From IMG/VR virus record IMGVR_UViG_3300006919_000291, positions 1 to 29,082 of that record: a stretch of DNA of 29,082 nt; one strand, written 5' to 3'. How positions within the stretch are numbered: the first letter of the stretch is position 1; the number at the start of each line of letters is the position of its first letter. The notes beneath the pieces are model-generated. The model ran no database searches. It had not been told where the DNA came from and worked only from the letters and a program-made list of their open reading frames with translations. This document shows, one piece after another, positions 192 through 29,082 of this stretch. The position numbers and the translations under genes are program-made. This stretch comes from a virus.

Positions 192-503
192 CTATCCATT
201 CTTCCCAAACTTTTGAGAACGAGCAGCACCAGAGCCTCTGGCAACACCGCCGCCTTCCATCTTCTGGATCTTGGTGACACCCCCTGCTGCGTACATCTTT
301 GAACTCATACGCATCTTGTTTGGCATGTTGTTCGGCATCTTGCCGCCACTTTGGGCAAGAAACGCAGGAACCATTTCGCCGTCTTTCTCTGCCATCGGCA
401 TCTTGCCGCCAGACTTGTAGCCCTTAGACTTCATTTTTCCGCCACCGGCATAGCCTTTGGACTTCATCTTGCCGCCAGCCATCATCCCTTTAGACTTCTT
501 CAT
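192..503 (-). CDS. Small Gly/Lys/Met-rich repeat protein
   Basis: This gene encodes 103 residues from the ATG at the 503 end, preceded on the minus strand by a strong GGAGG ribosome site 6 nt away; that site decides the start over an upstream in-frame codon. The first third is a tandem repeat of units like GGKMKSKGY, giving a very basic low-complexity region with no acidic residues. The middle is richer in P, N and M. The C-terminus contains GGGVARGSGAARSQKFGKNG. A similar GG-x-VR-x-x-G-x-A ending occurs in the small protein encoded next to the large terminase. It overlaps the upstream gene by 14 nt and abuts the probable portal gene. The function is unknown. Its place among head genes suggests a virion or assembly role, and the charge suggests nucleic-acid binding; both are inference. 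Confidence 0.75.
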   Translation of the reverse strand: MKKSKGMMAGGKMKSKGYAGGGKMKSKGYKSGGKMPMAEKDGEMVPAFLAQSGGKMPNNMPNKMRMSSKMYAAGGVTKIQKMEGGGVARGSGAARSQKFGKNG

Positions 504-1179
504 CGGAATCCTCCGCATATAAATTGTCAAAAACCCTGTTCACATCCAGCGTGTAGTCAAGATCAGACTTGCTGTAATGAATATGTTGAGACGGGCGAAA
601 ATCTGGTGCGCCCTCTCCTGTCTCAAACCAAGCTGGGTGAGTCACCCTAACTCGATTATTCGGTAACGCTACTATGTTCCCTGTATACGGGCCTGCCTCT
701 AGTAGCTCCATCACATGACTCTGCTTGTGTTGTGCGGGGTCATCTGCAATTTCGTTGTCTGTGTAGTCTACAGTAAACATGTACTTAGCAGGGTAGAACT
801 CTCCGTCCACCTTTGCCAGCCACGGACAGGGTGATGCCCTCTCCAACACATATACCGAATGATCCCGTGATGAGCAATCCCAAGGTTGCGCTGCATATAC
901 AGGCATCGGCTCAGGCCATTCCTCAAAAGGCGTGTCGCCTACCAGTGCGGTGATTGGCATTCTTGCCCACATCGCCCCGCCATGAACATTGGGTTCGTCG
1001 GTGTCGTATGTCTCTGCACCAGTAAATATCAACTGAAAACTCAGGCATCGCTTTGGCATTGTCGTGACAGCAATTGCCATCGCATGAACAAATTCACCGT
1101 GATACTTAGTGTGGTTATGCGTGTATTCCTTTCTCACCCAGCACTTAAAGTACGGGATGTTGCTTTGAAGATATGGCAT
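490..1179 (-). CDS. Conserved phage protein of unknown function
   Basis: The product is 229 residues and starts MPYLQSNIPYFKCWVRKEY. It is rich in aromatic residues and prolines, and has motifs such as GGAMWARMPITALV (about residues 67-80) and a C-terminal region with TGNIVALPNNRVRVTHPAW. No signal peptide or membrane segment is visible. I recognise the style of a protein often seen beside terminases in marine phage contigs, but I know no assigned function. The start ATG immediately follows the TAG of the preceding small gene, with no good ribosome site of its own, so translational coupling is likely. The end overlaps the following Gly/Lys/Met-rich gene by 14 nt. Confidence 0.8.
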   Translation of the reverse strand: MPYLQSNIPYFKCWVRKEYTHNHTKYHGEFVHAMAIAVTTMPKRCLSFQLIFTGAETYDTDEPNVHGGAMWARMPITALVGDTPFEEWPEPMPVYAAQPWDCSSRDHSVYVLERASPCPWLAKVDGEFYPAKYMFTVDYTDNEIADDPAQHKQSHVMELLEAGPYTGNIVALPNNRVRVTHPAWFETGEGAPDFRPSQHIHYSKSDLDYTLDVNRVFDNLYAEDSDEEV

Positions 1180-4866: not shown

Positions 4867-4969
4867 TCGACGCTCACATTCCAACTGATGAGTGCTGGGT
4901 GGTAACCAGCCGAAACCGTGTAGGAGGCGCGGTCTTGGAAAACCAATACAACAACTTGGAGTGACACCT

Positions 4970-6142
4970 ATGTCCATTAACGCATCAAAGGTCAGCCCTT
5001 CGCAGGCCTCAGAAATGCTGCTGGCACACGCCATCAGTCAACTATCTGGCGGCAAGCGCCACAAGCCCGTGTATCTCTGGGGTACCTACGGCGTTGGCAA
5101 ATCATCCATCGTCAAACAATTGATCACCAAGATTAGCGCCCACTTTGATAAGCCTGTCGGCTTGCTAGATGTTCGCCTGTCACAGTTCGACGCAGTCGAT
5201 ACTCGCGGCATTCCCTACATCCGTGACCAGCGCGATGCGCTCGATGCGGTGGGTAATGACGAAATGGCTGGCATGAGTGACGAAGTGAAACGCGCTGCCT
5301 ATCAGCTACTGTCGGCTGGGCCATCAAAGACTACCGAATGGTCTACGCCATCATGGCTGCCCAATGTGGCGCGTGACGGCGAGTTCGGCATTCTGTTCTT
5401 GGATGAGATACAGCTTGCATGCCAGTCGGTCAAAAATGCTGGATACCAGTTGCTTAATGAGTTCCGCTTGGGCGACTACATCTTGCCTGCTGGCTGGTTT
5501 GTCATTGCCGCATCCAACCGTCCCAATGACGGCGCTGGTGTGTCTGGGCGTATGGATGCTGCTGTAAGCACCCGTTTCAAGTATCACTTGGATGTTATGC
5601 CATCCGCTGCTGAGACCACCGATTACTTTCAAGACATTGGTGTTCGCCCAGAGGTGATCGCGTTCCTGAAGTTTCGCGGTGAGGCTGCCGGTGATCAGGC
5701 TGGACTCATTCATGAGTTCCCCAATGGCGGCACCGCCAAAGACAAGGTTGCTATCGCTACGCCGCGAACATGGGAGTCTGTCAGCGACATCCTTGACGAT
5801 GGCATGGCGGCTGATCTGGAGCACATCGCTATCGAAGGTGCTATCGGCGCTGGTGCTGCTGGCGAGTTTGTCGCGTTCCTCCGCACGATGCGTAACCTGC
5901 CTGACATTGGCATGTTTTTGTCTGACCCGCACAACGTGCCACTGCCCAATGAGATCACCACTCAGTACGCAGTGACCGCTGCGCTGGCTGCGCGGGTGAC
6001 CGCTGACAATCTTGGCAATGGCGTGACCGTTGTGTCCCGCATCAACAACGAACTGCTGGAAGTGTTCTGGATACTGGCAACGCGCCGTGACCCAGACCTC
6101 AAGGCTTCACCTGAGTATGTTGCCCACAAAGCAACCCACTAA
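4970..6142 (+). CDS. MoxR-type AAA+ ATPase
   Basis: The product is 390 residues. Walker A is WGTYGVGKSS (residues 37-46), Walker B ILFLDEIQ (141-148), sensor-1 AASNRP (180-185), and arginines in GRMDAAVSTRF (R194, R202) are candidate finger residues. This layout fits the AAA_5/MoxR group, which remodels or activates partners and usually works with a VWA-domain protein using the MIDAS metal site. Such a VWA protein is encoded two genes downstream. The start is the ATG after a GGAG about 8 nt upstream; an earlier in-frame GTG has no ribosome site. In cellular genomes MoxR-VWA pairs act as chaperones for metal centres or complexes. Its purpose in a phage is unknown. Confidence 0.9.
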   Translation: MSINASKVSPSQASEMLLAHAISQLSGGKRHKPVYLWGTYGVGKSSIVKQLITKISAHFDKPVGLLDVRLSQFDAVDTRGIPYIRDQRDALDAVGNDEMAGMSDEVKRAAYQLLSAGPSKTTEWSTPSWLPNVARDGEFGILFLDEIQLACQSVKNAGYQLLNEFRLGDYILPAGWFVIAASNRPNDGAGVSGRMDAAVSTRFKYHLDVMPSAAETTDYFQDIGVRPEVIAFLKFRGEAAGDQAGLIHEFPNGGTAKDKVAIATPRTWESVSDILDDGMAADLEHIAIEGAIGAGAAGEFVAFLRTMRNLPDIGMFLSDPHNVPLPNEITTQYAVTAALAARVTADNLGNGVTVVSRINNELLEVFWILATRRDPDLKASPEYVAHKATH

Positions 6143-6147
6143 ACCCC

Positions 6148-6175
6148 ACGGGGCTTCGGCCCCCTTTATTTATTT
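6148..6175 (+). terminator. UUCG-hairpin terminator or attenuator
   Basis: Just after the ATPase stop, GGGGC-TTCG-GCCCC (6150-6163) forms a five-pair GC stem closed by a UUCG tetraloop, followed by the U-rich tract CTTTATTTATTTT. This fits a Rho-independent terminator. Because the next gene of the same operon starts 15-20 nt later with a ribosome site inside the tail, it probably acts as a partial terminator or an mRNA processing or stability element that lowers the downstream dose. Confidence 0.65.
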
Positions 6176-6189
6176 TGGAGTAAATAGTT

Positions 6190-7065
6190 ATGGATAAGAT
6201 CCAGAACAACGCAATGCTTATTGCTGCGACGATCAAGAAATTCTCAAACAGCCGCAAAGACACCAGCATATCTGCTGAGGTTGCCGCGACTAAGAACGCC
6301 AACCCCAAGGTCATCACCGTGACCAAGAAACTGCTCGATGCACCTGCCATCAAGGCGCTCAACCGTATCGCTGGGCAGCTTCGCAACTCAGTACTCAACC
6401 CTGTGACCATGCCTTGGGAGGATGGTGTACGCCTGATCACTGTTGACCAGATCGAATCATTTGAGGCTGAGTGGGACAAGAAAGTAGACCGCGCTGAGGA
6501 GCTAAAGCGCGAGGTCATTACCGAATGGCCCAACATCTTGAAGCGTGCCAAAAAAGACCTTGGTGATTCCTTCGATATCTCAGAGCTACCCAGTGCTGAG
6601 TTTGTCGCTGGCAGTTACCAGTTCAGCTACATACTACGCGCCATGCCCGACTCCGGTGATATCAGGGTCAACCTGCCTGCCGACAAGATCGCCAAGATCA
6701 AGGCTCAGGCCGAGTCCGACATCAACAAGCGCGTCGAGTCTGCCGCTGAGTCTGTGCATGAGCGTGTCATCGACACCTTGCAGTCTTTGGTTGACGGCCT
6801 TGAGCGGCACGGTAGCAAGCCTGCTGGTGCCAAACGTGCAAGCAAGTTTGCAGATACCACTGTCGAGAACATCGAGAAGCTTGCTCAGGTTCTACCTTCA
6901 CTCAACATTACCGGCGACCCCAAGCTGGCGCAGGCAAGCAACGCTATCCTGTCTCAGCTTAACGGCCTAGATCCTCAGCGGCTGCGCGACTCATCAACTG
7001 AGCGTCAGGCTGTTGCCAACAAGGCCAAGTCGATTGTCGATAACCTCACCGGCCTTTGGGATTAA
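6190..7065 (+). CDS. MoxR/VWA-associated helical protein (DUF3150-like)
   Basis: The 291-residue product is mostly helical and charged. Motifs I associate with phage proteins found between MoxR and VWA genes are PWEDGVRL (75-82), MPDSGDIRVNLP (152-163) and LPSLNITGDPKL (235-246). From memory this resembles the DUF3150 group; I could not verify that. No catalytic residues, membrane segments or signal peptide are visible. The long helix of residues 164-205 has a coiled-coil character. GGAG lies upstream of the ATG (TTGGAGTAAATAGTT). It sits between the ATPase and the VWA protein on the same strand, so it is likely an adaptor or substrate of that pair. The exact role is unknown. Confidence 0.7.
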   Translation: MDKIQNNAMLIAATIKKFSNSRKDTSISAEVAATKNANPKVITVTKKLLDAPAIKALNRIAGQLRNSVLNPVTMPWEDGVRLITVDQIESFEAEWDKKVDRAEELKREVITEWPNILKRAKKDLGDSFDISELPSAEFVAGSYQFSYILRAMPDSGDIRVNLPADKIAKIKAQAESDINKRVESAAESVHERVIDTLQSLVDGLERHGSKPAGAKRASKFADTTVENIEKLAQVLPSLNITGDPKLAQASNAILSQLNGLDPQRLRDSSTERQAVANKAKSIVDNLTGLWD

Positions 7066-7078
7066 CGGAGAAATAATT

Positions 7079-8410
7079 ATGTCCGCGTTAAACATTATGT
7101 TGAAAGCTCGACGACGCATGCTGCGCGAGTTTCCATACTTTGGCTTCCGACTGCATCAGCTACTGCTGGTGCCTACAACCAAAACCTCGACGATGGCAAC
7201 CGACGGCAAGGCTATCTACTTCAACGAGAAGTGGGTGCCTGAGCAGCACAACATCCACGGCTACAAGTTCATCATGACCGTACTGGCTCATGAGATTATG
7301 CATGTTGATGGGTTCCATCACCTGCGTAAGGGCAGCCGTGATCACAAGCTTTGGAATGAGGCTGCTGACTACGCCATCAACTACGCGCTAGTGCGTGAGG
7401 GCTTTGAGGTTCACGATGGCCTGTACAGCACCGACTACATTGGCAAGTCTGCTGAACAGGTGTACACCATCCTCGAAAGCCAGCGCAGCACTGAGGCCGA
7501 CAAGCCCAGCACCGGCAACGGTGGCGCTGACGATGATGACTCAGGCGATGGCGCTGCCGATGGGGATACCCCTGATCAGGGCGACAGTGGCTCTGAGGGC
7601 GGCTCTGACGGCGATACCGGCGATGCTGGCGACACTGGCACCTCTGGTGACGGCGACGGCCCTGCTGACCCTGACGCGCCTTGGGGTGAGGTCTGGGAAG
7701 GCACCAACAATGACGGCACCGCAATGTCTGCTGATCAGAAAGCTTCTGTGCAGCGTGAGATCACCAGTCAGATATTTGAGGCTGCAAAGGCTCAGGATAA
7801 AATCAAGGGCAAAGGTGAGGGCCGTGGCGCTGCTGTTGACCAGATCATCAGTGGCGTATCCGGTGACCCTGTCCCTTGGTTCGAGCATCTTAAAGATGCG
7901 TTCTCTGACTACGTTCTGACTGAGCACACCTTTGCTCGACCAGAGCGCCGACTGCTCTCGCAGGGCATGATCTTGCCGACGCAGGAGCGTGAGCCTAACG
8001 GCGAGCTTGTTGTGTCGGTAGACACCAGCGGATCAATGGGCCAAGACGAGCTAGACGCTATTGCGGGCCATGTGCAGGACATCATCGATGAGATCAACCC
8101 TATTAAGACTGTGGTGATCTACTGCCACCATGTCCTCTGCGGCGTCGAGGAGTTTGATCGGCATGAGGAGCTAACGCTCAGGATTCCTGAGACCGGCGGC
8201 ACGGCGTTCAACCCACCGTTCAACTACGTTGCGCGTGAGGGCTTGGAGCCATGCGCGATGATCTACTTCACCGATGGCTGGGGTGACGTTGGGCCAGACG
8301 GCTGGCATGACTTCAGTGATCCAGACTATCCGGTGATCTGGGCAACGACAGACCGTGAGCCTTTATTCGCTGGGTGCGAACCCTTCGGTGAGGTGATACG
8401 GGTTACATAA
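7079..8410 (+). CDS. Metallopeptidase-like and VWA-domain protein (DUF2201 type)
   Basis: The 443-residue product has two recognisable parts. The N-terminal part carries HEIMH (71-75), followed by histidines at 80-81 and WNEAADYAIN (92-101), a zinc metallopeptidase-like pattern of the DUF2201 N-terminal family. An acidic, Gly/Asp-rich linker (about 143-200) is low complexity. The C-terminal VWA domain has the MIDAS signature DTSGS (315-319) and a later TDG (398-400), with a threonine-rich TGGTAF between. The start ATG follows CGGAG about 9 nt upstream. Family knowledge pairs such proteins with MoxR ATPases, here encoded two genes upstream. Whether the HExxH part cleaves anything is not shown by the sequence. 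Confidence 0.88.
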   Translation: MSALNIMLKARRRMLREFPYFGFRLHQLLLVPTTKTSTMATDGKAIYFNEKWVPEQHNIHGYKFIMTVLAHEIMHVDGFHHLRKGSRDHKLWNEAADYAINYALVREGFEVHDGLYSTDYIGKSAEQVYTILESQRSTEADKPSTGNGGADDDDSGDGAADGDTPDQGDSGSEGGSDGDTGDAGDTGTSGDGDGPADPDAPWGEVWEGTNNDGTAMSADQKASVQREITSQIFEAAKAQDKIKGKGEGRGAAVDQIISGVSGDPVPWFEHLKDAFSDYVLTEHTFARPERRLLSQGMILPTQEREPNGELVVSVDTSGSMGQDELDAIAGHVQDIIDEINPIKTVVIYCHHVLCGVEEFDRHEELTLRIPETGGTAFNPPFNYVAREGLEPCAMIYFTDGWGDVGPDGWHDFSDPDYPVIWATTDREPLFAGCEPFGEVIRVT

Positions 8411-18312: not shown

Positions 18313-18500
18313 GCGACGAAGAAACAAAGGAAAGTGTTGAAGAGTTTCTGGCAAGTGGCGGCGAGATCGAACAAGTGCCGTTTGGTAAAAGAAAGTACAA
18401 AGAAGACTGGGAACCTTGGGAAAAACCAGACAGAGGTTTGTCTTTCAAGGTGTTGCAAAATATCCGTAAAAACCGCCGCAAAGCAAGAGGACTCTCCTAG
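18309..18500 (+). CDS. Small FLAxGG-motif protein, copy 2
   Basis: The 63-residue product carries ESVEEFLASGGEIEQVPFGK, a second copy of the motif in the preceding gene, and ends in a basic segment (NIRKNRRKARGLS). The pair probably arose by duplication. Its stop overlaps the stop of the convergent giant gene by 4 nt, with no terminator between, so the two transcripts would collide or overlap. Confidence 0.65.
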   Translation: MSDEETKESVEEFLASGGEIEQVPFGKRKYKEDWEPWEKPDRGLSFKVLQNIRKNRRKARGLS

Positions 18501-21500
18501 AGAAGGTTGGATATCCTGTTAGCTATAGTCTCTGTTGCCGTGGGTAGTTCTATGTATCTTTCTAGCTGCGGGACGATGCTCAGGTAGTACTGCTCTTGAG
18601 TATTGATAAACCTCATCTGCTCCTGCTTCTGATCTGCCGTCAGGTCAGACTTCAATAAGGTTCTACGCTGCTTCCTGAGATCTGCAAGCGCACTGGCTGT
18701 AGGCTGTAGCTGCTTCCTCAGACCTATGAACTGCTTTTTATTTACCAAGAAACTCTCAAGCTCATCAAACCTACCTTGGTCTTGCAGCAGCTTGGCTGCA
18801 TTCTCGGTACGCTTGATGTAGTCCCACATCTCGTAGAAGTCTTCTTTGTTACCGCCACCAAACTCACTAGCAAAGAACCTTCGTATGACCGGATACTGAG
18901 AGACATCGGTTCCAGCAAGCACCGCTCTGTTGTCTCCTTGCAGGGTGGTGCCTCTCAAGCCATAGTCAACGGCACCCAAGAAATAAGATCCAATTGTGCC
19001 GCCGTAGCCTTTCATCAAATGATCTAGTTTGATCGGGCTTATGCCCAAGACCTTTGCCATGTTCTTGGCAACCTCTGTTGTAGAGGCAAGCTCTTGAAGC
19101 TCTGGCGGCAATGATGAATCTATAAATACGGGAGTTACAGGTCTACCCGTGTAGAGGTCGTAGTTCATGTACGCCTCCATGATCGGGGTTATTGCCTGCG
19201 GGGGTTGAACGCCAAGCGTACCAAACACTGCTCGGCCTATTGATTGCTGCGCCTCTCTGGCAGTTGTGCCTTCGTTGTAAGAATCAATGATCCGCTCAGG
19301 CAGCGTCTTGAAGATAAGGCCAACCTCAAACGGGATTGGTATTCTGACTGGCACACCAGACGGCGTGGGTATTAGCCAATAGTTGTCTTTTACTTCTTCG
19401 GTCTGCTCTTTGTACTGCTCATCATCACTAACCATTGTGTAGTAAATGGCTGTACTAGCAGCTATCAAAGATCCTCTGGCGATAAAGCTCATGGCTGCCT
19501 GAGAGCGTGAAAGGTCTCTATTGGCAGAGCTTTTACCTGTACCGGCCCGTGCAAGGACATCTAAGCCTTGTATCCTAGCGTTCAAGAAAGGAATCGTTGC
19601 TGTAACCAATCGCATAACAGGACTGCTGCCACGGCGACCAAAGTTCAACACCTCCATCGCTTGATAGCTGGCCTCTGCTTCATTACCTGTACGAGCTAAT
19701 ACATCGTTGTAAACAGCGTTTCTAGTAGCAGCGTCTGAACGGGTTGTCGCCTGACCAAGAAAATCCCAACCGCCGATAAAGAGTTTACTAAGAAGCCCTC
19801 TTTGATCTACGTTCTTGTTGCGAGTTTGAAGTATCTTTCCTGCGTACTCGCCAATGTTTTCTGGGTCATTCTTGTAGTCATAACCGCCTACAACACCTGT
19901 CCTTTCAAGCTTCTCCATGCCTTCAGCGTAACCAAAGACAGTGTCAACTATTGGCACAAAGCTAGATCCAGAGGTAACAAACGCAGACAACGAATCACGC
20001 AGCATGTTTGCAATAACAAACCCCGGCTCCCGTGTAACCATCTCTCGTAAAAAACGGGATGGGAAACCCAGTATCTTAGAAACTTCACGCTCTACCCCAC
20101 CGGCAGGCTCAACAGTCAACGACTCATATATTAACGGGTCATCAATAATGAACTTACGTCTATTGCCGTTGACCTTGAAGGTGACAACAGCCTCGCCTGT
20201 AGTGTTCTGTCCGGGCTTGACCTCTCTTGCTAAACCAATGTTTCTCATGTCCCTGACAATGCGTTGCTGGGCAACATTCTTCATGCCCATGCTAATCGCT
20301 GCGTTCAGGTTCATGGATATTGCTTCCAAGAGCGGCACGTTAACTTCTTTTTCGCTGCCTTTGATTGCCTTTAGGTCTGCGCTTGCAGTCAGGCCGCCAA
20401 AGATGTTCGGCGCGTTTGGGGTGTCGGCACCTTCTACTTGACGATAGAAAGGCACATAGTCTGACTGGTCTTGCCACATCTCTGCGGTCTCTGCATCAAC
20501 AACACCCGTATCTTTGAGAAACTGAACGGTGTAGCCGTTGTAGTCCTGCCAAGCGTCATACCAGTCCTTGACTATTGAGTTGCCATTCTCATCCAAGAAA
20601 GACTCTGCGGTTGCAATGTTAGCTGCATGATCTGCCGGGGTTCCCGGTACGGCTATGCCTTTTGCTCGCAAACGCTCGGATCTCTTAGCTATTGAGTATG
20701 CCTGAGCCATTTGCTCAAGAGACCCATGCTCCTTGGTGTACAGCATAGACATCAGGTCTATAAGGCCACCAATCTTTCTGGTCTCGCCACGGCTATTGAT
20801 GTGGTTGAAATCCGCTATCTTAGTCATGCCACCTGTGTACACAGGGACACCGTACTGAAGAGCGGCTGCGGTTATCGCGTTAGCCCTGTCAGCGTTCAAA
20901 GCGGCAGCCAAGGACGATGAGTCAGCAAGCAAGTTGCCAAGCATGCCTTGGTAGTTTTCTAGCTGGGCATACCTATTGACTGCTGCCTGTTTAGCCTTGG
21001 TCAACCACTTGGCTATCGGCCCTTGGTCTAAGACGTTGAGGTAGGTCTGTCCGGGGGTGTTTGTGGGTAGGTCTGCAACAACATTATCTATTGCAGCTTG
21101 AGCAGCAGGATTGACCTGTGGTGAGTTAGACCTAGAGAAAGCAGGCATTTCACTATCTGAAAGCTCTTGGCCTTTGTCTGGGTCGGCTGCTACAGCTTGT
21201 GCATATGGATCTGCGCCGGGATTAAATCGTGGCACCGTGCCTGCGGGACGATTCTCTGCTATTTGTAGATTGTCGGCTACAACACGGTCAACTTCACTCT
21301 GACCTATTACTTCTTTGCGCTTGTATTTATCAAGCAGGTTGAATGGAAGCCCTACGTCTTCAGTCGGTATCGGTCTGGCAGCATCGCCTCTTCCTCTGCG
21401 CCTAGAGGCTGAGTCGGGTCTCGGTCTGGGTACGCCGCCATCAGATAGTTTTCTCTCGTAAGTGGCTGCTTGGTCGCCTTCAGGTATCCCTCCGTCAGAT

Positions 21501-24500
21501 CGTTCCCAGTCGGGCGGCTTGATTTGTCCTGCATGTTCATAGATGGCCTCTCTAGCCTGATCCAGCGTTATCTGCTTTTTATTATACTGCTTCCATATAC
21601 TGTCTACAACTTCCACATTACTGTTTTGAGACTTGTACTCTGGTCGGAAGAGGCCTCTGACCGCTTCCCATGTAATGGACTGCATCTCTCTAGGTAAAAC
21701 ACCGCGCTCGTTAGCAGCACGGCGGTAGGCTTCCTCGTAGATTGAGTACACGCCGTTTAGGCCCGTAATGCTTGACGATGAACCCTTCGTTCCAAAATTG
21801 TGAGAAACCTCAAATGCACTGCCGCCAAGAGGTTTAAGAAGCCCTGCCGCAACGGCATGGGTGTCTATGGTTACATAGCCAAGATCCGAGTCTGGATCGA
21901 ATATGTTGTTGTAAAAGTTTCTGACTTTGTTTGCCGAACCAAGCGATGCAGATATAGCGTCAATGTCAGTTTCTCTTAGGGCTTTGATTGACTTGGCTAT
22001 CTCAGTTAGAGATCCCCAAGCCACCTTAGAGTTGCTACCGTCAGAATTCTTTGCGTAGTCGAGAAGTCTGCCGTCAGGGGATACAATCCTGTAGCTAGGG
22101 TCGTTATAGGTCTGGTCAAAAGTCCTGATCCACATAGCGCCTAGCTGCTCACCTTGCCCCGGCTCATTGAATTTATCCAGTACTTGATCAAGGGAGCTAG
22201 AGCCTATCAGAGTAAGCATCTCACGATTTCTGGCTTGACCCTTGGCGCTTATACCATCATGAAAGAATATTTCTTCGGCGCGAGCTTTCATCTCAGGAGT
22301 AAAAGGCTGCCCTGCGTGATCAAAGAACGTATCAATAGTTCTCTCTGCGAGCGAGGCGTTTTGATACCAGTCCTTTTGCGGAGACAGGTTGGCTGCAACA
22401 GCAGCAGCTTGTTGCATGGTTAAGTTGTGACGTTCTGCAAATCTACGGACTAAAGCGTTTGCGCCTTTGTACCAAACCTTCGAGTTATTACGGGTATCAG
22501 CCGGAACCCTGTCATATATATTGAGCAGATTATTCTTAACAAGCTCAACAAACGCCTCTGCTTTTTGTTTATCTGATCTTAGGTCTTTTGATTTCTGTAG
22601 TATCGGATAGAGGTTAGCGTCTTTGATAAGCTCCATGTTCTTGCCAAAGACCTTGCCGTCAGCAAGAAAGGTTTCGTAGTCATTGACTAGTAAGTCTTCA
22701 AGAGGGTCTTCTTTTGATCTGGCGGCTGTGGGGTATCGGGTACTTACATTACCCTCTATACCGCCCTGTTCAGCGGCTCGCCTAGAGAACATAGGTGATT
22801 CTTCAAAGCCGTCCCTGCCTTCACGGGATGTCCACTCAGGCATCAAGCCCATCTTCTGGTCAGCAAAGACGGTGTCTAGTACACCAGCGCCTTGGTTTTG
22901 CTCGCCATATGGGCCGTAGTTCAGCCAGCTATTCTGCCCCCTAGTCTCAGACGTAAGTGCCTGTAACGCTGGGCCAGTGAATAGTTTGGCGTGTGCCTGC
23001 CATGCATTTTCCTCACCGCGAGCGCGGAATCCAGCACCTTCTATGCCGTGACCAAATGCGTCATGTACAGCCCTGAATAAGTCGTTGTTGGTGACTATTT
23101 GCTTTCGACCTAGCTGATCTTTCCATCGCAACCCTGTGTCACGCAACATAACCCTGTTTGGATCGCCTATATCGTTATAGAAGTCATCTAAGGTGCCGTA
23201 GCCGTCATAAGTGCCATAGACGGACATGCGTTTGTTGCCGCGCAAGTCCCGCATTGCGTTGTACGGGTTGCCGTCATAAGGGTCTGTGTCTGAATCATAG
23301 AAATCAAACTCAAAACCTTCGTCAATCAAGGCATCGTATTGGTTGCGTGTTTGCCTAGCCAGATCCTCATAAGCATCCCTAACATTAGGATCAGTGGGAT
23401 CATCAGCCATCTCCTCATAAGCCTGCGCTATCCGAGTGGCTCTCTCTGGGTCTACCCTTACATATTCCGATTGTCTGGCAAGCGGGATGCCATAGGTCTC
23501 TGCATATCGCTCTGCTGCGGCATTGACTGCTGGGTCTGGCCCCGTGGCCCCTGCCCTGATCGGCGCTCCTTCGAGCGGCGTTCTGCTTGCACCCTGATCT
23601 TCTGTCGGCGCAACGCCTCGTGCCTGATCGCGTCCTCTTCCGTCTCTTCCGCGTTGGGATCGTACATTGTCGCCTCCAAGGCTTGATATGTTTCTGGAGA
23701 AAGCTGGAGACTCACCAAAGTCTCGCTCTACTGGATCTACATAGCCTTCGCGCCTTGGAAGGTCAGATACGCCAGCAGCCTCTGATATGGCTCTAGATTC
23801 TTTGTCTGTAAGGATCTTTGTGACTTTGATACCGCCACTAATCATCCAATTTTCAAACATATTGGGATTAGTCTTGTAACGGTAGTAGCCGTTTTCCGGC
23901 ATTTGATCCGTTATGTCAGCCGTGGTTACGTCTAGCTCGCCATTAGCTTTAGTTCTGGCGTTGGCGTTAGCTATCGTTTGCCAGTCAAAGTCGGCGGGTA
24001 CTTCTATTTCTGCCCATACCTGATCGTCTTTTCTAAAGTCTGGCCTAGAAAGCTTCTTGCTGGTCTTGCCGCCTATGTGCGGAGCCATAGGTAAATCGCC
24101 GGAATGAAATCCCGGTCTAAACGCCACGCCTTGTATCGCTTTAACATCCGGGTTTTTAATAACACCAAGGTCAGCCAATCTTTGGGCCTCTTCCGGGCTT
24201 ACATTGACCCTGCCGCCAGTTGTTGCTTTTACATAGGGCTTTCCATTTGCCCCCATGAAAAACCCTTTGGCTCCTTCCGTTCTTGGGTCTGTTGCCTTTA
24301 TCCACTCTCCAGTAGGAATTGGCGTAGCACCTTCAACAAACAGCGGGTAAATCTGCCCGTCTTTGTAGTTAAAAAGCTTGTATGCCTTTACTACATTTAC
24401 TGGCTCTTTCATCGGCTTAGGACGGCGAGAAAAGTTGACCTCTTCTGCCGCCTTAACATCTTGAGCGTTATCAGCTATCTCGGATTCTTCAAAGTCAGCA

Positions 24501-27500
24501 ATGGTTTGACCTGCCTGCGCGGCACGTTCTGCCTCTTCGCCGGTAGTGATGACTGTGCCGGGGGGCGGTTTGGCTAGGGTTCTAGATACGACCTTCTCTG
24601 TTTGGGCAAAGGTTCTTATCTCGCCTCTCTGCCTGCCACCTATGGTGCCTGAGCCTATGCCGCCGATAACCTCGCTGAAGGTATTGAATTGCTCGCCTCT
24701 AAGGGCTGAGACCATGTTCCTAAAGAACCTAGCTATGCGCTCTACAAGGGATCTTGGCTTGCCCTGTAAGAGTTTACTGTCTTCTCTTGCTCGCCTGACT
24801 AACTCAGCAACAGATTCTTCTGCCTGATCTACTGGGCTTAAGTCATCGTAGTTGTTTTGTGCCCATTTGAGGAATGTCTGTGGCTTGCCATCTCTGTCTT
24901 TGGTGGGGTGTATCTTCTTGCTTGCTGCCCTTGAGAGAAGATTCCATTCTTTGTTGGTGAACAGATCCAGCTTACGCATGGCATGGATCATTTCGTGATC
25001 TAGAAGAGCCAGTAATTCTGCTTCTACCTGAGCATCTGTCAGGGTCTTACCCTGCATAGCTTTGTCTATTGACAAGAAAATAGTATTTATTCTTGGGTCG
25101 TAGTAAGCCTCTGCTCTGTCCTCTGGGTCTGCCTGATCAGACCGAACAAGCTGGGTCTTGGCTTCTCTAGCTAAAGCGGCCTCACCACCAATGACATCTG
25201 CATCTATATCGCCGCCCTGTCTAGGCCTTATGCCGTAAACAAGGTTGCCATCAGGATCTTTAACTGCCGTCCTAAGCGCATAATCTAGGCTTAGGCCAAC
25301 GTCCTTCAAACCAAACCCTGTCATAACCTTCTTGATTGCAGAGCGTAATCGGTCAACGTCTACTGATGGCGCAGGCAGAGCGAGTGTTTCTTGTTGCTGC
25401 TCCACCACAGACTCAACTGGAGCAACCGGCTCCACACCCTGTTTGGCAATGTCCTTACGCAACTCCTGCATAGACTCAGCGCCACTTTTGGTCGCTATGT
25501 TTATACCTGTGGCGTTAGCTAAGACTATTTCGCCTGCATCTGGGCTTTCTTGCAGGGCTTGGACAGCAGCACGGAACTGCGCCCCTGTGTACTTGGGCAG
25601 CTTGAATGTGGGCAGCTTGGTGGGCTTGTCAAATCGTGGCAGTGATCTAAGACGTTGATATAGCAGCCTAGCCTCAGCAACAGACAGGTCGTTTACCGAC
25701 TTGATCGTCTTCTTGCCAAGAATTCTAGACGCAAGGTACTTGACCTCTGGAGATCCCACTTTGGAGGTTATGTTCTTTGCTTCTAACAGCGACTGCATCT
25801 CTTGGAAGTTGCCATCGACGTTACGCATAACGCCTTTTTCGACGGCAGCCTTGCCAGTGGCGTTGTTTAGTTGGTTGGCATAAACCCTAGCATCAGCCTC
25901 GGTCTTGAACTTAACCAGCTTAGGCGGCTTCTTCTTGGGGTTTGCTTTGATTTCAGCGTCTTTCTCTAGGACGGTCAGAGGTCTGCCCTGAAGCACCTCG
26001 CCTGCGCTGCTCCTGATAATAGGGTTGCCAGCTTTACTGAGATCAGCCTTGTACGTTTCTGTCTCTGGAAGACCATTTACCCGTGTATCGGTAAGGTTAT
26101 ATAGCTGGTCTTCTTTCAGTACGCTTCTGACTTCTTCAATGGTGAAGTTGTTTGTTACTGGCAGACCCTTACGCAGACGCTTCGCATTGATGCGCTGAGA
26201 GGCGGTCATCTTGGACGGCCCTACACGGTTTTCTACCAGTGTTTTGACATCAGCAACCTCATCAAAGCCACGGTCTTGTGTGGTCTCTGCCGCGCTATCT
26301 ACGGCAACAGATGTATAGGTGTTGGAGTCGGGGTGGTTTACAGCGAAGTTGTAGGACTGAAGTGTAGAAGCTTGATCTGTGTCATACGCTTCTGGGGATG
26401 TAGAGATAACTGCATCACCGGCAGAAAAGACGTTGTCGTTGATGATTTCGTCATTAAGAAACCCAGCAAGAGCGAAGGCATCTTCTGAGTTGTTGAGTGG
26501 TATGCCGAACTGCTGACCAGAACTGTCTTGTACAGTAAAGACGGGAGCGCCAGTCTCATCTAGCTGCGTGGTGTCTCCTAAAGCACCGCCAAACTCTTGC
26601 GGCAGGTTGACCGTGAATGAGTTGTCTGCTGACGGGAAACTGTCGCCCATTGTCTGGCGTATCTGTTGAGCATAGGCAAGCATTGGCTGCTTTGGGTATC
26701 GCCTTTGAATGCCTGCGGTAGGCTCTGCGACAGTGGTGATCTGCAAGCCTGTCTGCTGAGGCACACCATTCACGGAGGTAATCACCTCGCCGCCACCGGG
26801 AACCTCAACAAAGGTTGTGACCTGCTCTGTAGGCTTGCCTTTGTTTCTTATTCTGGTCTTTTCTTCTGCTTGGAAGGTCTGGCCTGATGCATCAGATATG
26901 TTAACTATTCTTGCAGGAGTCTTTAACTTGGTTGTGAGCGCCCTGCCTGTGGGTGGAGCTATCTGAGCGGGATCTATCTCTGCTCCAGCAGCCTGCCTAC
27001 GGGCCTCAGCGGCAGCCTTTACGTCTAGATTAGACTGAGCGTCTATACGAGCTTGTTCTGCAAGGTCTTTGGGTAGGTTTGCCTGCCTTTGGTTCTGGGC
27101 ATCTTCTAGGTCTTCTCTTTTCTTTCTCTCTGCTTCTTCTGAGGACTTGAAGGCATCTTTGTTGCGCCTTCCAGCTACAGCGTTCAAGACTAAGTCAGCA
27201 CCTGCACCGACAGCACCGCCAACGGTGAAGTCATCCATCAGGTTGCCACCGCCAACCTCCAGAGCCTCGTTGTATACGCCCTTCTCAACAGCGTCTTGCA
27301 ACAGACTTGCGGTTACTTCCTGAACGCCCTCAACCGTACCTGACATCAGGGCTGACCTAAGACGTTGACTGATGCCAGAAGGTAGCTGATCACCCGCTTC
27401 TAGGCCTCTAAGCCTGCGCAAAAGCCTTACAGGCGTAGCAAGCTCTGACAGGCCCACCATAGTGCCGCCGACAATAGCAGCGTCTTCCTGCCCCTCAGAG

Positions 27501-28066
27501 ACATCAAGACCTGCGTCACGGGCAGCTTGTATTCTTTGTGCTTGATCACCAGCGCCTGTGCCTGCCGCTAGTATGCCAGCGGCTCCTAGCTCACCAGCCT
27601 GAACCGCTCTGCTTGCCTGTATGCCCTTGCCAGCCAGACCAGCAAGCCGCACCGCTGCGGTGGGGGTGAAGAACGATGCAAACGAGCCAACACCTTCGCC
27701 AAACTTGGTAAGCCATTGATCTCTATAGGCTGCATCAGCCCCCATAGACTCTTCTATTGCAGCACGGCCTTCTCTTGCAGCGCGAACCAAGTCATTCTCT
27801 TCGCCGCTATCTATTAAGTCCTCAAGGCCTACTGCGTTAGTGCCTGCATCCGCAAGCTCTGCAAGACCTTCGCCAGCAGACAAGAACGCATTGGCAAAAC
27901 CGCGACCTACACCCTTGGCAGTCTCAAAGGCTTGACCAGAGGCGGTTCTCTCTCTCTCGTAATAAGCCTGAAAAAGCTCCTCAGCATCTTGAGGCGTTGG
28001 AGGAGAATCGCCGGTTACACTAATAGTTTCGCCGGTAACGGTGTCTGTCAGAGTGTAATCTGGCAT
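18497..28066 (-). CDS. Giant polyvalent virion-type protein, 3189 residues
   Basis: This one gene is a third of the window. Modules, in order, are an N-terminal region with alanine/glycine-rich hydrophobic stretches (about 128-205, 275-295), a coiled-coil-like segment (306-365), a zincin-like domain with HEMIH (1024-1028), a domain with YKLFNYKDG and RPGFHSGDLP (about 1225-1410), a domain with HDAFGH (1668-1673) and a TRGQNSWLNY segment, a domain with LSPQKDW (near 1894) and VTIDTHAVA (from 2065; DUF7178-like from memory), and a C-terminal region with LREMVTREPG (near 2674) and an LPD38-like end. FSR motifs at F1212, F1456, F1760 and F2310 fall between modules. Such proteins are ejected with phage DNA or carried in the virion; activities here are inference. 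The ATG lies two bases after the upstream stop. Confidence 0.8.
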   Translation of the reverse strand: MPDYTLTDTVTGETISVTGDSPPTPQDAEELFQAYYERERTASGQAFETAKGVGRGFANAFLSAGEGLAELADAGTNAVGLEDLIDSGEENDLVRAAREGRAAIEESMGADAAYRDQWLTKFGEGVGSFASFFTPTAAVRLAGLAGKGIQASRAVQAGELGAAGILAAGTGAGDQAQRIQAARDAGLDVSEGQEDAAIVGGTMVGLSELATPVRLLRRLRGLEAGDQLPSGISQRLRSALMSGTVEGVQEVTASLLQDAVEKGVYNEALEVGGGNLMDDFTVGGAVGAGADLVLNAVAGRRNKDAFKSSEEAERKKREDLEDAQNQRQANLPKDLAEQARIDAQSNLDVKAAAEARRQAAGAEIDPAQIAPPTGRALTTKLKTPARIVNISDASGQTFQAEEKTRIRNKGKPTEQVTTFVEVPGGGEVITSVNGVPQQTGLQITTVAEPTAGIQRRYPKQPMLAYAQQIRQTMGDSFPSADNSFTVNLPQEFGGALGDTTQLDETGAPVFTVQDSSGQQFGIPLNNSEDAFALAGFLNDEIINDNVFSAGDAVISTSPEAYDTDQASTLQSYNFAVNHPDSNTYTSVAVDSAAETTQDRGFDEVADVKTLVENRVGPSKMTASQRINAKRLRKGLPVTNNFTIEEVRSVLKEDQLYNLTDTRVNGLPETETYKADLSKAGNPIIRSSAGEVLQGRPLTVLEKDAEIKANPKKKPPKLVKFKTEADARVYANQLNNATGKAAVEKGVMRNVDGNFQEMQSLLEAKNITSKVGSPEVKYLASRILGKKTIKSVNDLSVAEARLLYQRLRSLPRFDKPTKLPTFKLPKYTGAQFRAAVQALQESPDAGEIVLANATGINIATKSGAESMQELRKDIAKQGVEPVAPVESVVEQQQETLALPAPSVDVDRLRSAIKKVMTGFGLKDVGLSLDYALRTAVKDPDGNLVYGIRPRQGGDIDADVIGGEAALAREAKTQLVRSDQADPEDRAEAYYDPRINTIFLSIDKAMQGKTLTDAQVEAELLALLDHEMIHAMRKLDLFTNKEWNLLSRAASKKIHPTKDRDGKPQTFLKWAQNNYDDLSPVDQAEESVAELVRRAREDSKLLQGKPRSLVERIARFFRNMVSALRGEQFNTFSEVIGGIGSGTIGGRQRGEIRTFAQTEKVVSRTLAKPPPGTVITTGEEAERAAQAGQTIADFEESEIADNAQDVKAAEEVNFSRRPKPMKEPVNVVKAYKLFNYKDGQIYPLFVEGATPIPTGEWIKATDPRTEGAKGFFMGANGKPYVKATTGGRVNVSPEEAQRLADLGVIKNPDVKAIQGVAFRPGFHSGDLPMAPHIGGKTSKKLSRPDFRKDDQVWAEIEVPADFDWQTIANANARTKANGELDVTTADITDQMPENGYYRYKTNPNMFENWMISGGIKVTKILTDKESRAISEAAGVSDLPRREGYVDPVERDFGESPAFSRNISSLGGDNVRSQRGRDGRGRDQARGVAPTEDQGASRTPLEGAPIRAGATGPDPAVNAAAERYAETYGIPLARQSEYVRVDPERATRIAQAYEEMADDPTDPNVRDAYEDLARQTRNQYDALIDEGFEFDFYDSDTDPYDGNPYNAMRDLRGNKRMSVYGTYDGYGTLDDFYNDIGDPNRVMLRDTGLRWKDQLGRKQIVTNNDLFRAVHDAFGHGIEGAGFRARGEENAWQAHAKLFTGPALQALTSETRGQNSWLNYGPYGEQNQGAGVLDTVFADQKMGLMPEWTSREGRDGFEESPMFSRRAAEQGGIEGNVSTRYPTAARSKEDPLEDLLVNDYETFLADGKVFGKNMELIKDANLYPILQKSKDLRSDKQKAEAFVELVKNNLLNIYDRVPADTRNNSKVWYKGANALVRRFAERHNLTMQQAAAVAANLSPQKDWYQNASLAERTIDTFFDHAGQPFTPEMKARAEEIFFHDGISAKGQARNREMLTLIGSSSLDQVLDKFNEPGQGEQLGAMWIRTFDQTYNDPSYRIVSPDGRLLDYAKNSDGSNSKVAWGSLTEIAKSIKALRETDIDAISASLGSANKVRNFYNNIFDPDSDLGYVTIDTHAVAAGLLKPLGGSAFEVSHNFGTKGSSSSITGLNGVYSIYEEAYRRAANERGVLPREMQSITWEAVRGLFRPEYKSQNSNVEVVDSIWKQYNKKQITLDQAREAIYEHAGQIKPPDWERSDGGIPEGDQAATYERKLSDGGVPRPRPDSASRRRGRGDAARPIPTEDVGLPFNLLDKYKRKEVIGQSEVDRVVADNLQIAENRPAGTVPRFNPGADPYAQAVAADPDKGQELSDSEMPAFSRSNSPQVNPAAQAAIDNVVADLPTNTPGQTYLNVLDQGPIAKWLTKAKQAAVNRYAQLENYQGMLGNLLADSSSLAAALNADRANAITAAALQYGVPVYTGGMTKIADFNHINSRGETRKIGGLIDLMSMLYTKEHGSLEQMAQAYSIAKRSERLRAKGIAVPGTPADHAANIATAESFLDENGNSIVKDWYDAWQDYNGYTVQFLKDTGVVDAETAEMWQDQSDYVPFYRQVEGADTPNAPNIFGGLTASADLKAIKGSEKEVNVPLLEAISMNLNAAISMGMKNVAQQRIVRDMRNIGLAREVKPGQNTTGEAVVTFKVNGNRRKFIIDDPLIYESLTVEPAGGVEREVSKILGFPSRFLREMVTREPGFVIANMLRDSLSAFVTSGSSFVPIVDTVFGYAEGMEKLERTGVVGGYDYKNDPENIGEYAGKILQTRNKNVDQRGLLSKLFIGGWDFLGQATTRSDAATRNAVYNDVLARTGNEAEASYQAMEVLNFGRRGSSPVMRLVTATIPFLNARIQGLDVLARAGTGKSSANRDLSRSQAAMSFIARGSLIAASTAIYYTMVSDDEQYKEQTEEVKDNYWLIPTPSGVPVRIPIPFEVGLIFKTLPERIIDSYNEGTTAREAQQSIGRAVFGTLGVQPPQAITPIMEAYMNYDLYTGRPVTPVFIDSSLPPELQELASTTEVAKNMAKVLGISPIKLDHLMKGYGGTIGSYFLGAVDYGLRGTTLQGDNRAVLAGTDVSQYPVIRRFFASEFGGGNKEDFYEMWDYIKRTENAAKLLQDQGRFDELESFLVNKKQFIGLRKQLQPTASALADLRKQRRTLLKSDLTADQKQEQMRFINTQEQYYLSIVPQLERYIELPTATETIANRISNLL
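21352..21540 (-). CDS. Nested +1-frame ORF in giant-gene linker
   Basis: A 62-residue frame lies inside the giant gene on the same strand, shifted by one. It begins MNMQDKSSRPTGNDLTEGYL after GAGAGG, about 6 nt upstream of the ATG. It ends LPDRYRLKT. In the main frame this stretch is a Gly/Asp/Pro/Arg-rich linker (around residues 2177-2238). Either an overlapping gene or a by-product of base composition; the ribosome site is the main support. Confidence 0.25.
   Translation of the reverse strand: MNMQDKSSRPTGNDLTEGYLKATKQPLTRENYLMAAYPDRDPTQPLGAEEEAMLPDRYRLKT
23458..23667 (-). CDS. Second nested +1-frame ORF in giant-gene linker
   Basis: A 69-residue frame starting MYDPNAEETEEDAIRHEALR has GGAGG five bases before its ATG. 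It is shifted the same way as the other nested frame and lies in the linker after the FSR motif at residue 1456, where the main frame is repetitive (RGRDGRGRDQARG). The helix-like EEDAIRHEALRRQKIRVQAE is more protein-like than the main frame. It is unproven. Confidence 0.3.
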   Translation of the reverse strand: MYDPNAEETEEDAIRHEALRRQKIRVQAERRSKERRSGQGPRGQTQQSMPQQSDMQRPMASRLPDNRNM

Positions 28067-28068
28067 TA

Positions 28069-29082
28069 CTAGTTGATCACATAGCGAGAAGTTGCTGGAC
28101 TTGCTGTAGCCGCCTCTACCGCGCTGGCAGTAGGATCTTCGACAACAGCAAGAGCGGAAGTCATGTCAATGCCTTGTTGTTCAGCCAGTTTAATTACAAG
28201 TTGTCTCTTTCGGGCTGCGTATTCTGGACTACCAACAAAAAGAGGCTTGCCATCTGGCCCCTGAGCGCCTTTCAGTAATTCTTCAGCACTTTCGATAATT
28301 CTCTTTTGCTCAAGGCTCATGCTTGTTCTGCTAGAGCTGTCTGAAAGAGAATCGTAGTACCTAGCCCGTAAAGCCCTGTCACGGGCCTTTTCACGCACAT
28401 CCTGTGCGGCAACGCCTGCCTTAGACAGACCCTCTGCTAGGTCACCCTTAGCAATGCCAGCGCCAAGCTGTATCAGAGCAGCACCAAGGGCTTCTTTCTT
28501 GGCAAGCTCTTCCTTGCTCATAAGGCCAGCCTCACGGGCAGCCCTAGCCTCTTGTATGTAACGATCTGCTACTTGCTGTGATGTCTCTTCGCTAGAATCA
28601 GGTGTCGCCACTGCTGCTGCTTCAGTTGTTGGTTCAGCCTGTTCCGCTGCGTCTGTATCAACCACTGTTGCATCGCTTCCCCCTTTCTTTTCAGGCTGAT
28701 TGAACTGGCTTAGTCTGGTATTAAGCTCTGATAGCTGTGACTCACGCCTACGAACCTCTTTCTTTACGGCTGGGTCTGTTGTGTCATGAGTGGCAATGTA
28801 CTCTTGCAACTCAGCCTGCTTGGTCTGAATCGCTTCTATAGCTCTCATATTAATCTGAGCTTCTTTACTGATGCGCTCTTCTGCAAACGTACCCTCTGGC
28901 CTTTGAGTTCTGTCTTTCTCTTCTCGTCTGGCTAGAGCCATTCCACCAAATGGACTACCGCCGTATATCAAAGCTTTTTGCGCGTCAGACATAGGCTCGT
29001 CATCCTCAGCCACTTCCCCGCTTGTTCGCTCCTCTTCAAGTCTTTGCTGCTCCAGTATTCGTTTCATGTCAGCGCCAACGCC
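28069..29082 (-). CDS. Probable internal or structural virion protein, incomplete
   Basis: The frame is open to the right edge (residues GVGAD precede the ATG at 29067), so the gene probably begins outside the window; at least 337 residues are seen. It is helical, rich in A, E, K and R, with an acidic middle (DTDAAEQAEPTTEAAAV), a segment EALGAALIQLGAGIAKGDLA and GLSKAGVAAQDVREKARDRA. Such helical proteins with a Gly/Ala-rich patch are often internal virion or ejection proteins, in the style of those encoded before giant polyvalent proteins. Its TAG lies 2 nt before the giant gene, so both are likely co-transcribed. No catalytic motif is seen. Confidence 0.65.
   Translation of the reverse strand, partial: GVGADMKRILEQQRLEEERTSGEVAEDDEPMSDAQKALIYGGSPFGGMALARREEKDRTQRPEGTFAEERISKEAQINMRAIEAIQTKQAELQEYIATHDTTDPAVKKEVRRRESQLSELNTRLSQFNQPEKKGGSDATVVDTDAAEQAEPTTEAAAVATPDSSEETSQQVADRYIQEARAAREAGLMSKEELAKKEALGAALIQLGAGIAKGDLAEGLSKAGVAAQDVREKARDRALRARYYDSLSDSSSRTSMSLEQKRIIESAEELLKGAQGPDGKPLFVGSPEYAARKRQLVIKLAEQQGIDMTSALAVVEDPTASAVEAATASPATSRYVIN

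Follow-up and report, generated by a model that had tools for sequence, protein, structure and literature searches.

A repeated F-S-R motif at the joints of a giant phage polyvalent protein: a candidate cleavage signal for an in-chain metallopeptidase

A giant open reading frame (ORF) in a viral genome carries the same three residues, F-S-R, between several of its parts, and the locus raises the question of what this motif does there. A preliminary description had suggested that it marks either protease-processing sites or joints at which modules are exchanged. We studied the motif in the window, i.e. the whole stretch of 29,082 nucleotides that was analysed (positions 1-29,082 of IMG/VR record IMGVR_UViG_3300006919_000291), and in related proteins from metagenomic contigs.

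Layout of the giant ORF and its FSR sites

The giant ORF (18497..28066) encodes an LPD38-type polyvalent protein of 3189 aa. It lies on the minus strand, as do all of its features given below. The order of its parts is peptidase, modules A, B and C and the C-terminal LPD38 part. Residues 1-1211 (24434..28066) form the N-terminal part with the peptidase and have no FSR inside. They are followed by cargo module A (residues 1216-1450, YKLF...FHSGD; 23717..24421), cargo module B (residues 1500-1755, NDLFRAVHDAFGHG... GQNSWLN; 22802..23569), cargo module C (residues 1785-2190; 21497..22714), which Pfam identifies as DUF7178, and the C-terminal part (18500..21139) with LPD38. Only DUF7178 (best stretch 1835-1933) and LPD38 (residues 2882-3038, E 8.4e-34) were matched by Pfam; for the peptidase and modules A and B we set the limits from conservation and folding. 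The protein thus combines several unlike domains with an LPD domain in one large chain, as polyvalent proteins do.

FSR occurs exactly four times in the protein, at the very positions that the preliminary description had listed: F1212 (EEVNFSRRP; 24425..24433), F1456 (ESPAFSRN; 23693..23701), F1760 (ESPMFSRR; 22781..22789) and F2310 (EMPAFSRS; 21131..21139), the last being the joint to the conserved C-terminal part. At three of the four sites the motif extends to E-[SM]-P-[AM]-F-S-R. When we shuffled the residues of the protein, four or more FSR were obtained in 16 of 20,000 shuffles, and among all tripeptides FSR ranked about fifth by P-value. Within this one protein the excess is suggestive but weak.

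In the AlphaFold models all four sites fall into stretches with pLDDT below 50 between confidently folded domains (297-329, 541-581, 273-313 and 783-844 for sites 1 to 4, in the numbering of the models). The linkers that hold FSR are thus predicted to be disordered, in line with the low-complexity linkers described before. For the folded parts we obtained pLDDT values of 77-97 (peptidase core), mostly 70-96 (module B) and 75-97 (module C); module A was folded with low to middling confidence. The sites had also been said to lie between recognisable domains. They do separate folded parts, and only DUF7178 and LPD38 can be recognised with Pfam. The arrangement resembles that of a self-processing polyprotein, with one short motif per domain boundary in a linker of predicted flexibility. 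All sites are internal, unlike terminal signals of the T4/P1 capsid-targeting type.

The zincin-like metallopeptidase domain (residues 900-1165; 24572..25369) was assigned from alignments and structure prediction and its HEMIH active-site motif (residues 1024-1028; 24983..24997) from alignments. A search for a matching protease had been proposed in the preliminary description, which missed this candidate in the same chain. The HExxH domain aligns with distant relatives, and H135, E136, H139, E194 and E195 are invariant in 35 sequences. The AlphaFold model contains helices 122-143 and 189-206, the pair expected for a zincin, with HExxH on one helix and a Glu on a later one. In a Foldseek search of the peptidase model against the PDB, zincins appeared in the top list (selecase, 3lmc and lethal factor), none of them significant. 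Pfam has no model for the domain and gave weak SprT-like matches in 12 of the 35 members. Three divergent queries against 50,697 records of cultured phages found no copy of this peptidase. Bacterial genomes contain prophage-like ORFs of ∼4,200-4,600 aa in which a related peptidase is placed towards the C-terminal end and FSR is not in excess (L285-L287, L290 and L292 from Paracoccus, Frigidibacter and an uncultured Roseobacter; L294 from a Magnetococcales MAG), and one contig within a Pelagibacter MAG has six FSR.

The upstream neighbour gene (332 aa; 28069..29067, minus strand) is kept beside the giant gene in close relatives. In four relatives (L075, L087, L017 and L006) a DNA-ejection-protein gene (phrog_4287) lies just upstream of the giant gene, which places it among virion and ejection genes, as is usual for polyvalent proteins. 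In Podoviridae sp. ctQRb9, a metagenome-derived complete genome, a giant gene sharing module B is found between tail-tube and tail-fibre genes. This context fits an internal, ejected virion protein, which the virus probably injects into its bacterial host. Elsewhere in the window, an AAA ATPase adjoins a DUF2201_N putative metallopeptidase with a VWA-like domain (4892-8410, plus strand), resembling a MoxR/VWA-like pair; the DUF2201_N gene itself spans 7013-8410 (plus strand). A short protein rich in GGKM/KSKG repeats is encoded at 192-530 (minus strand), with tandem DNA repeats at 311-342 and 399-498.

Module C shows an invariant K...VRNFYNN...(V/I)TIDTHAV pattern, which we take to resemble the active site of helix-hairpin-helix DNA glycosylases (Lys and the Asp of VDTH). 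Foldseek compared the model containing module C with the PDB and gave weak hits to AGOG glycosylases (prob 0.54 and 0.23) and no significant match. The module may possibly adopt this fold and act as an injected DNA glycosylase.

FSR among the relatives and its tie to the peptidase

We collected relatives from IMG/VR in scans that used modules A, B and C, the peptidase and the C-terminal part as queries, which yielded at least about 240 loci. They are metagenomic contigs matched by short patterns, and among the matches listed 218 proteins were left after the removal of duplicates. Expected FSR counts were derived from composition. Among the matches listed, the 86 proteins with the peptidase contain 175 FSR compared to 33.6 expected, and the proteins of the 218-protein set that lack it contain 39 compared to 30.2. 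In the former the counts differ between the two sides of HExxH: again among the matches listed, we counted 8 FSR upstream (7.7 expected) and 167 downstream (26.1 expected).

LPD38 holds a conserved core of its own, EV[IL]NF[SG]RRG (e.g. residue 2465 of L027). As its EV[IL]NFSRRG form contains the tripeptide, FSR inside LPD38 were dropped from the counts, and motif scans of this family must exclude them. Sites in different proteins are also non-independent through cassettes shared by descent or exchange, an effect that is lessened, though not fully, in a non-redundant set of 45 peptidase-bearing proteins with less than 10% of their 6-mers in common. In the cargo region of these proteins, from the peptidase to LPD38, FSR is observed 60 times compared to 9.7 expected and ranks first among all tripeptides (Poisson P ∼1e-27, with shared ancestry not corrected for). 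The flanks are enriched for D/E at -4, P at -2 (9.4x), L/M at -1 and R at +3. In several single relatives FSR ranks first or nearly first among the repeated motifs and reaches up to six copies. A second deep peptidase group (L080, L087, L095, L104 and relatives) likewise carries up to six copies and has its own small cassettes (64-83 aa), one of which, of 67 aa, precedes the C-terminal part. The motif is therefore conserved outside the window, where a lack of conservation had been named as grounds for giving up both earlier readings. An effect of chance or composition in a long protein would agree with the rank of about fifth in the window protein taken singly; the counts in the non-redundant relatives rule it out for all practical purposes.

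We then compared proteins with and without the peptidase. With LPD38 excluded, proteins lacking the peptidase contain 19 FSR compared to 18.9 expected. At least two FSR before LPD38 were found in 30 of the 48 complete LPD38 proteins with the peptidase and in none of the 10 without. The same modules follow this pattern: FSR flanks module B in 4 of 13 cases with the peptidase in the chain compared to 4 of 67 without, and module C in 6 of 14 compared to 2 of 30. Two peptidase-less proteins have clear copies of the motif, and both are incomplete at the 5' contig edge. The idea that FSR marks LPD38 polyvalent proteins in general was rejected, since isolates such as Planktothrix phage Pag-Yong1, Escherichia phage Pondi, Aeromonas phiARM81mr, Vibrio FGH and Achromobacter CF418P1 carry at most one copy; the FSR of Escherichia phage Pondi lies within the LPD38 core.

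In a tree of 70 peptidases, proteins with multiple FSR occur in several deep lineages separated by long branches, and the well-supported branches force at least seven changes of the FSR label. FSR is absent from some peptidase clades (21 of 70), so the link between motif and peptidase is not absolute. Some of these clades have lost FSR or show YSR instead (2.8x), and a search for repeated motifs in FSR-less peptidase proteins gave no clear substitute beyond YSR and SRR.

The same tag at the joints, found only downstream of a built-in peptidase, suggests that the protein is probably made as one chain and later cut. A tag of this kind could also be accounted for in other ways. It could serve for docking or packaging, one copy per cargo unit, holding the chain to a partner in the virion or helping to thread it through the portal. 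A single motif in each unit, placed in a disordered stretch, would suit this function as well, and a short capsid-targeting signal of phage P1 DarB can carry a foreign protein (PMC9024508). However, the P1 signal is terminal and the FSR sites are internal, a packaging tag has no need for a peptidase in the same chain, and the motif is missing upstream of the peptidase as well as in LPD38 proteins that lack it. We consider this explanation unlikely, though it is the strongest of the competing ones.

The motif could also be cut by another protease, i.e. a separate phage head protease, the DUF2201 metallopeptidase or a host enzyme. Head proteases cleave ejected proteins elsewhere, as in the case of P1 DarA (PMC12810830), and the window does encode a second putative metallopeptidase with its DUF2201_N gene. 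That gene was seen in only 4 of 76 loci, most of which are too short to show it. Against another protease, the motif tracks the domain in cis, and FSR is not enriched in the remaining ORFs of these contigs (8 compared to 8.5 expected), where substrates in trans would be encoded. We consider another protease less probable still than a docking tag.

Cassettes and their exchange at the motif

To describe the units between the motifs we cut the proteins at [FY]SR and clustered the resulting cassettes based on coverage, as single-linkage clustering fused nearly all of them. The cassettes have near-constant lengths of 547, 229-230, 492-497, 210-211, 81-83, 67 and 65 residues and recur in varied orders and on varied backbones. 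Several of them are far more alike than the peptidases of their proteins. The 229-aa cassette is 85% identical between L002 and L017, the peptidases of which share 44%. For a cassette of L005 and L017 the values are 91% and 47%, and module A of the window is 90% identical to that of L033-L035 with peptidases at 49-50%. Between L002 and L014 an identity of ∼95% stops directly past FSRRAP. Both the contrast with the peptidases and the end of identity at FSR show that exchange occurs at the motif. The earlier suggestion of a module-exchange joint holds in this respect: cassettes flanked by FSR on either side shift between backbones.

Coinciding cassette edges, including the break in identity just described, would also be seen if FSR were a mere recombination joint, i.e. 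a short piece of shared DNA that has no function in the protein. For the 60 non-redundant sites we therefore compared the codons. They use 27 of the 48 possible spellings, including both blocks of serine codons, in proportion to codon usage, and codon sharing among the sites of one protein is close to expectation. This indicates selection on the protein and not on a DNA site. Furthermore, 39 of 56 proteins retain [FY]SR at the final joint, where the C-terminal part begins. A pure recombination site is largely refuted by the codon test and is very improbable. Under the processing model proposed below, each cargo unit would be a self-contained piece of linker, domain and linker ending in the same signal, and phages could therefore swap, add or drop units by recombination while their release is kept.

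A proposed processing code and its relation to known systems

We propose that the giant protein is a virion polyvalent protein that processes itself, in which a metallopeptidase in cis cuts at D/E-x-P-x-FSR and thereby frees swappable effectors; we assign this a probability of roughly 0.6. The two ends of the chain would be fixed, the N-terminal one with the zincin-like metallopeptidase and the C-terminal one with LPD38, and a variable series of cargo domains would lie between them. Copies of [D/E]-x-P-x-F-S-R-(R/A) in disordered linkers would mark the joints, the first directly after the peptidase part and the last where the C-terminal part begins. The peptidase would recognise the motif and cut there, either during assembly or after injection, and the cargo domains would be freed as separate effectors. 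If cut at the motif, the window protein would give five products of ∼130, 27, 34, 61 and 97 kDa, of which the first corresponds to residues 1-1211 and the fifth to the C-terminal part. The protease-site reading of the preliminary description in this way gains support that is indirect but strong: the motif goes together with an HExxH peptidase in the same chain, occurs downstream of it only, sits in linkers predicted to be disordered and is conserved at the level of amino acids. From these observations we infer the cutting itself, its agent, its place in the motif and its timing. With slightly better than even odds, the finding extends to a whole family, for which [D/E]-x-P-x-F-S-R would be the recognition code of in-chain phage metallopeptidases. 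Domains flanked by the tag would slot in and get released, and the code would be kept across very distant peptidases (∼30% identity) of environmental phages.

No domains are commoner in polyvalent proteins than peptidases, and the question of their cutting, its sites and its timing dates back to 2017. With a cut-like motif visible in the sequence, such cutting becomes directly testable. Splitting at FSR would provide the correct effector units for annotation and expression, and cutting giant ORFs in this way offers a route to unknown injected anti-host proteins. In addition, the in-cis peptidase would become a candidate for a protease with sequence specificity.

In RNA viruses, self-processing polyproteins contain a protease within the chain and repeat one short signal wherever two domains meet. 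The window protein would be a functional analogue of these, with the differences that a zincin in a DNA phage is involved and that the cargo units are exchanged between phages. For polyvalent proteins, self-processing by peptidases was predicted by Iyer et al. 2017 (PMC5512222). These proteins resemble the window protein in that a single chain holds several unlike domains, among them an LPD domain and a zincin-like metallopeptidase, and in that the gene lies near those of ejection proteins. The main text of that study contains no recurrent cut-like motif or FSR-bounded cassette code (FSR occurs 0 times), and it notes counter-examples that stay whole, such as the virion RNA polymerase of phage N4, which has a peptidase domain and is packaged uncut (PMC5512222); this weighs against our proposal. 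Our literature search found no described cleavage code, nothing relevant for 'FSR motif' together with 'phage' and no observed cutting of these proteins.

DdrB and DarA of phage P1, which are injected anti-restriction proteins, are internal proteins of the head, and their processing precedes or accompanies assembly. DdrB shares a metallopeptidase domain with the window protein. Unlike the latter, both undergo a single processing event with no repeated motif reported, and in the case of DarA the cut is made by Pro, a head protease encoded apart from it (PMC12810830), whereas we propose a peptidase in cis. Polymorphic toxins (PMC3482391) resemble the window protein in that a fixed carrier is combined with exchangeable effector cassettes. 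In the window protein, by contrast, the cassettes are internal and multiple and lie between two fixed ends.
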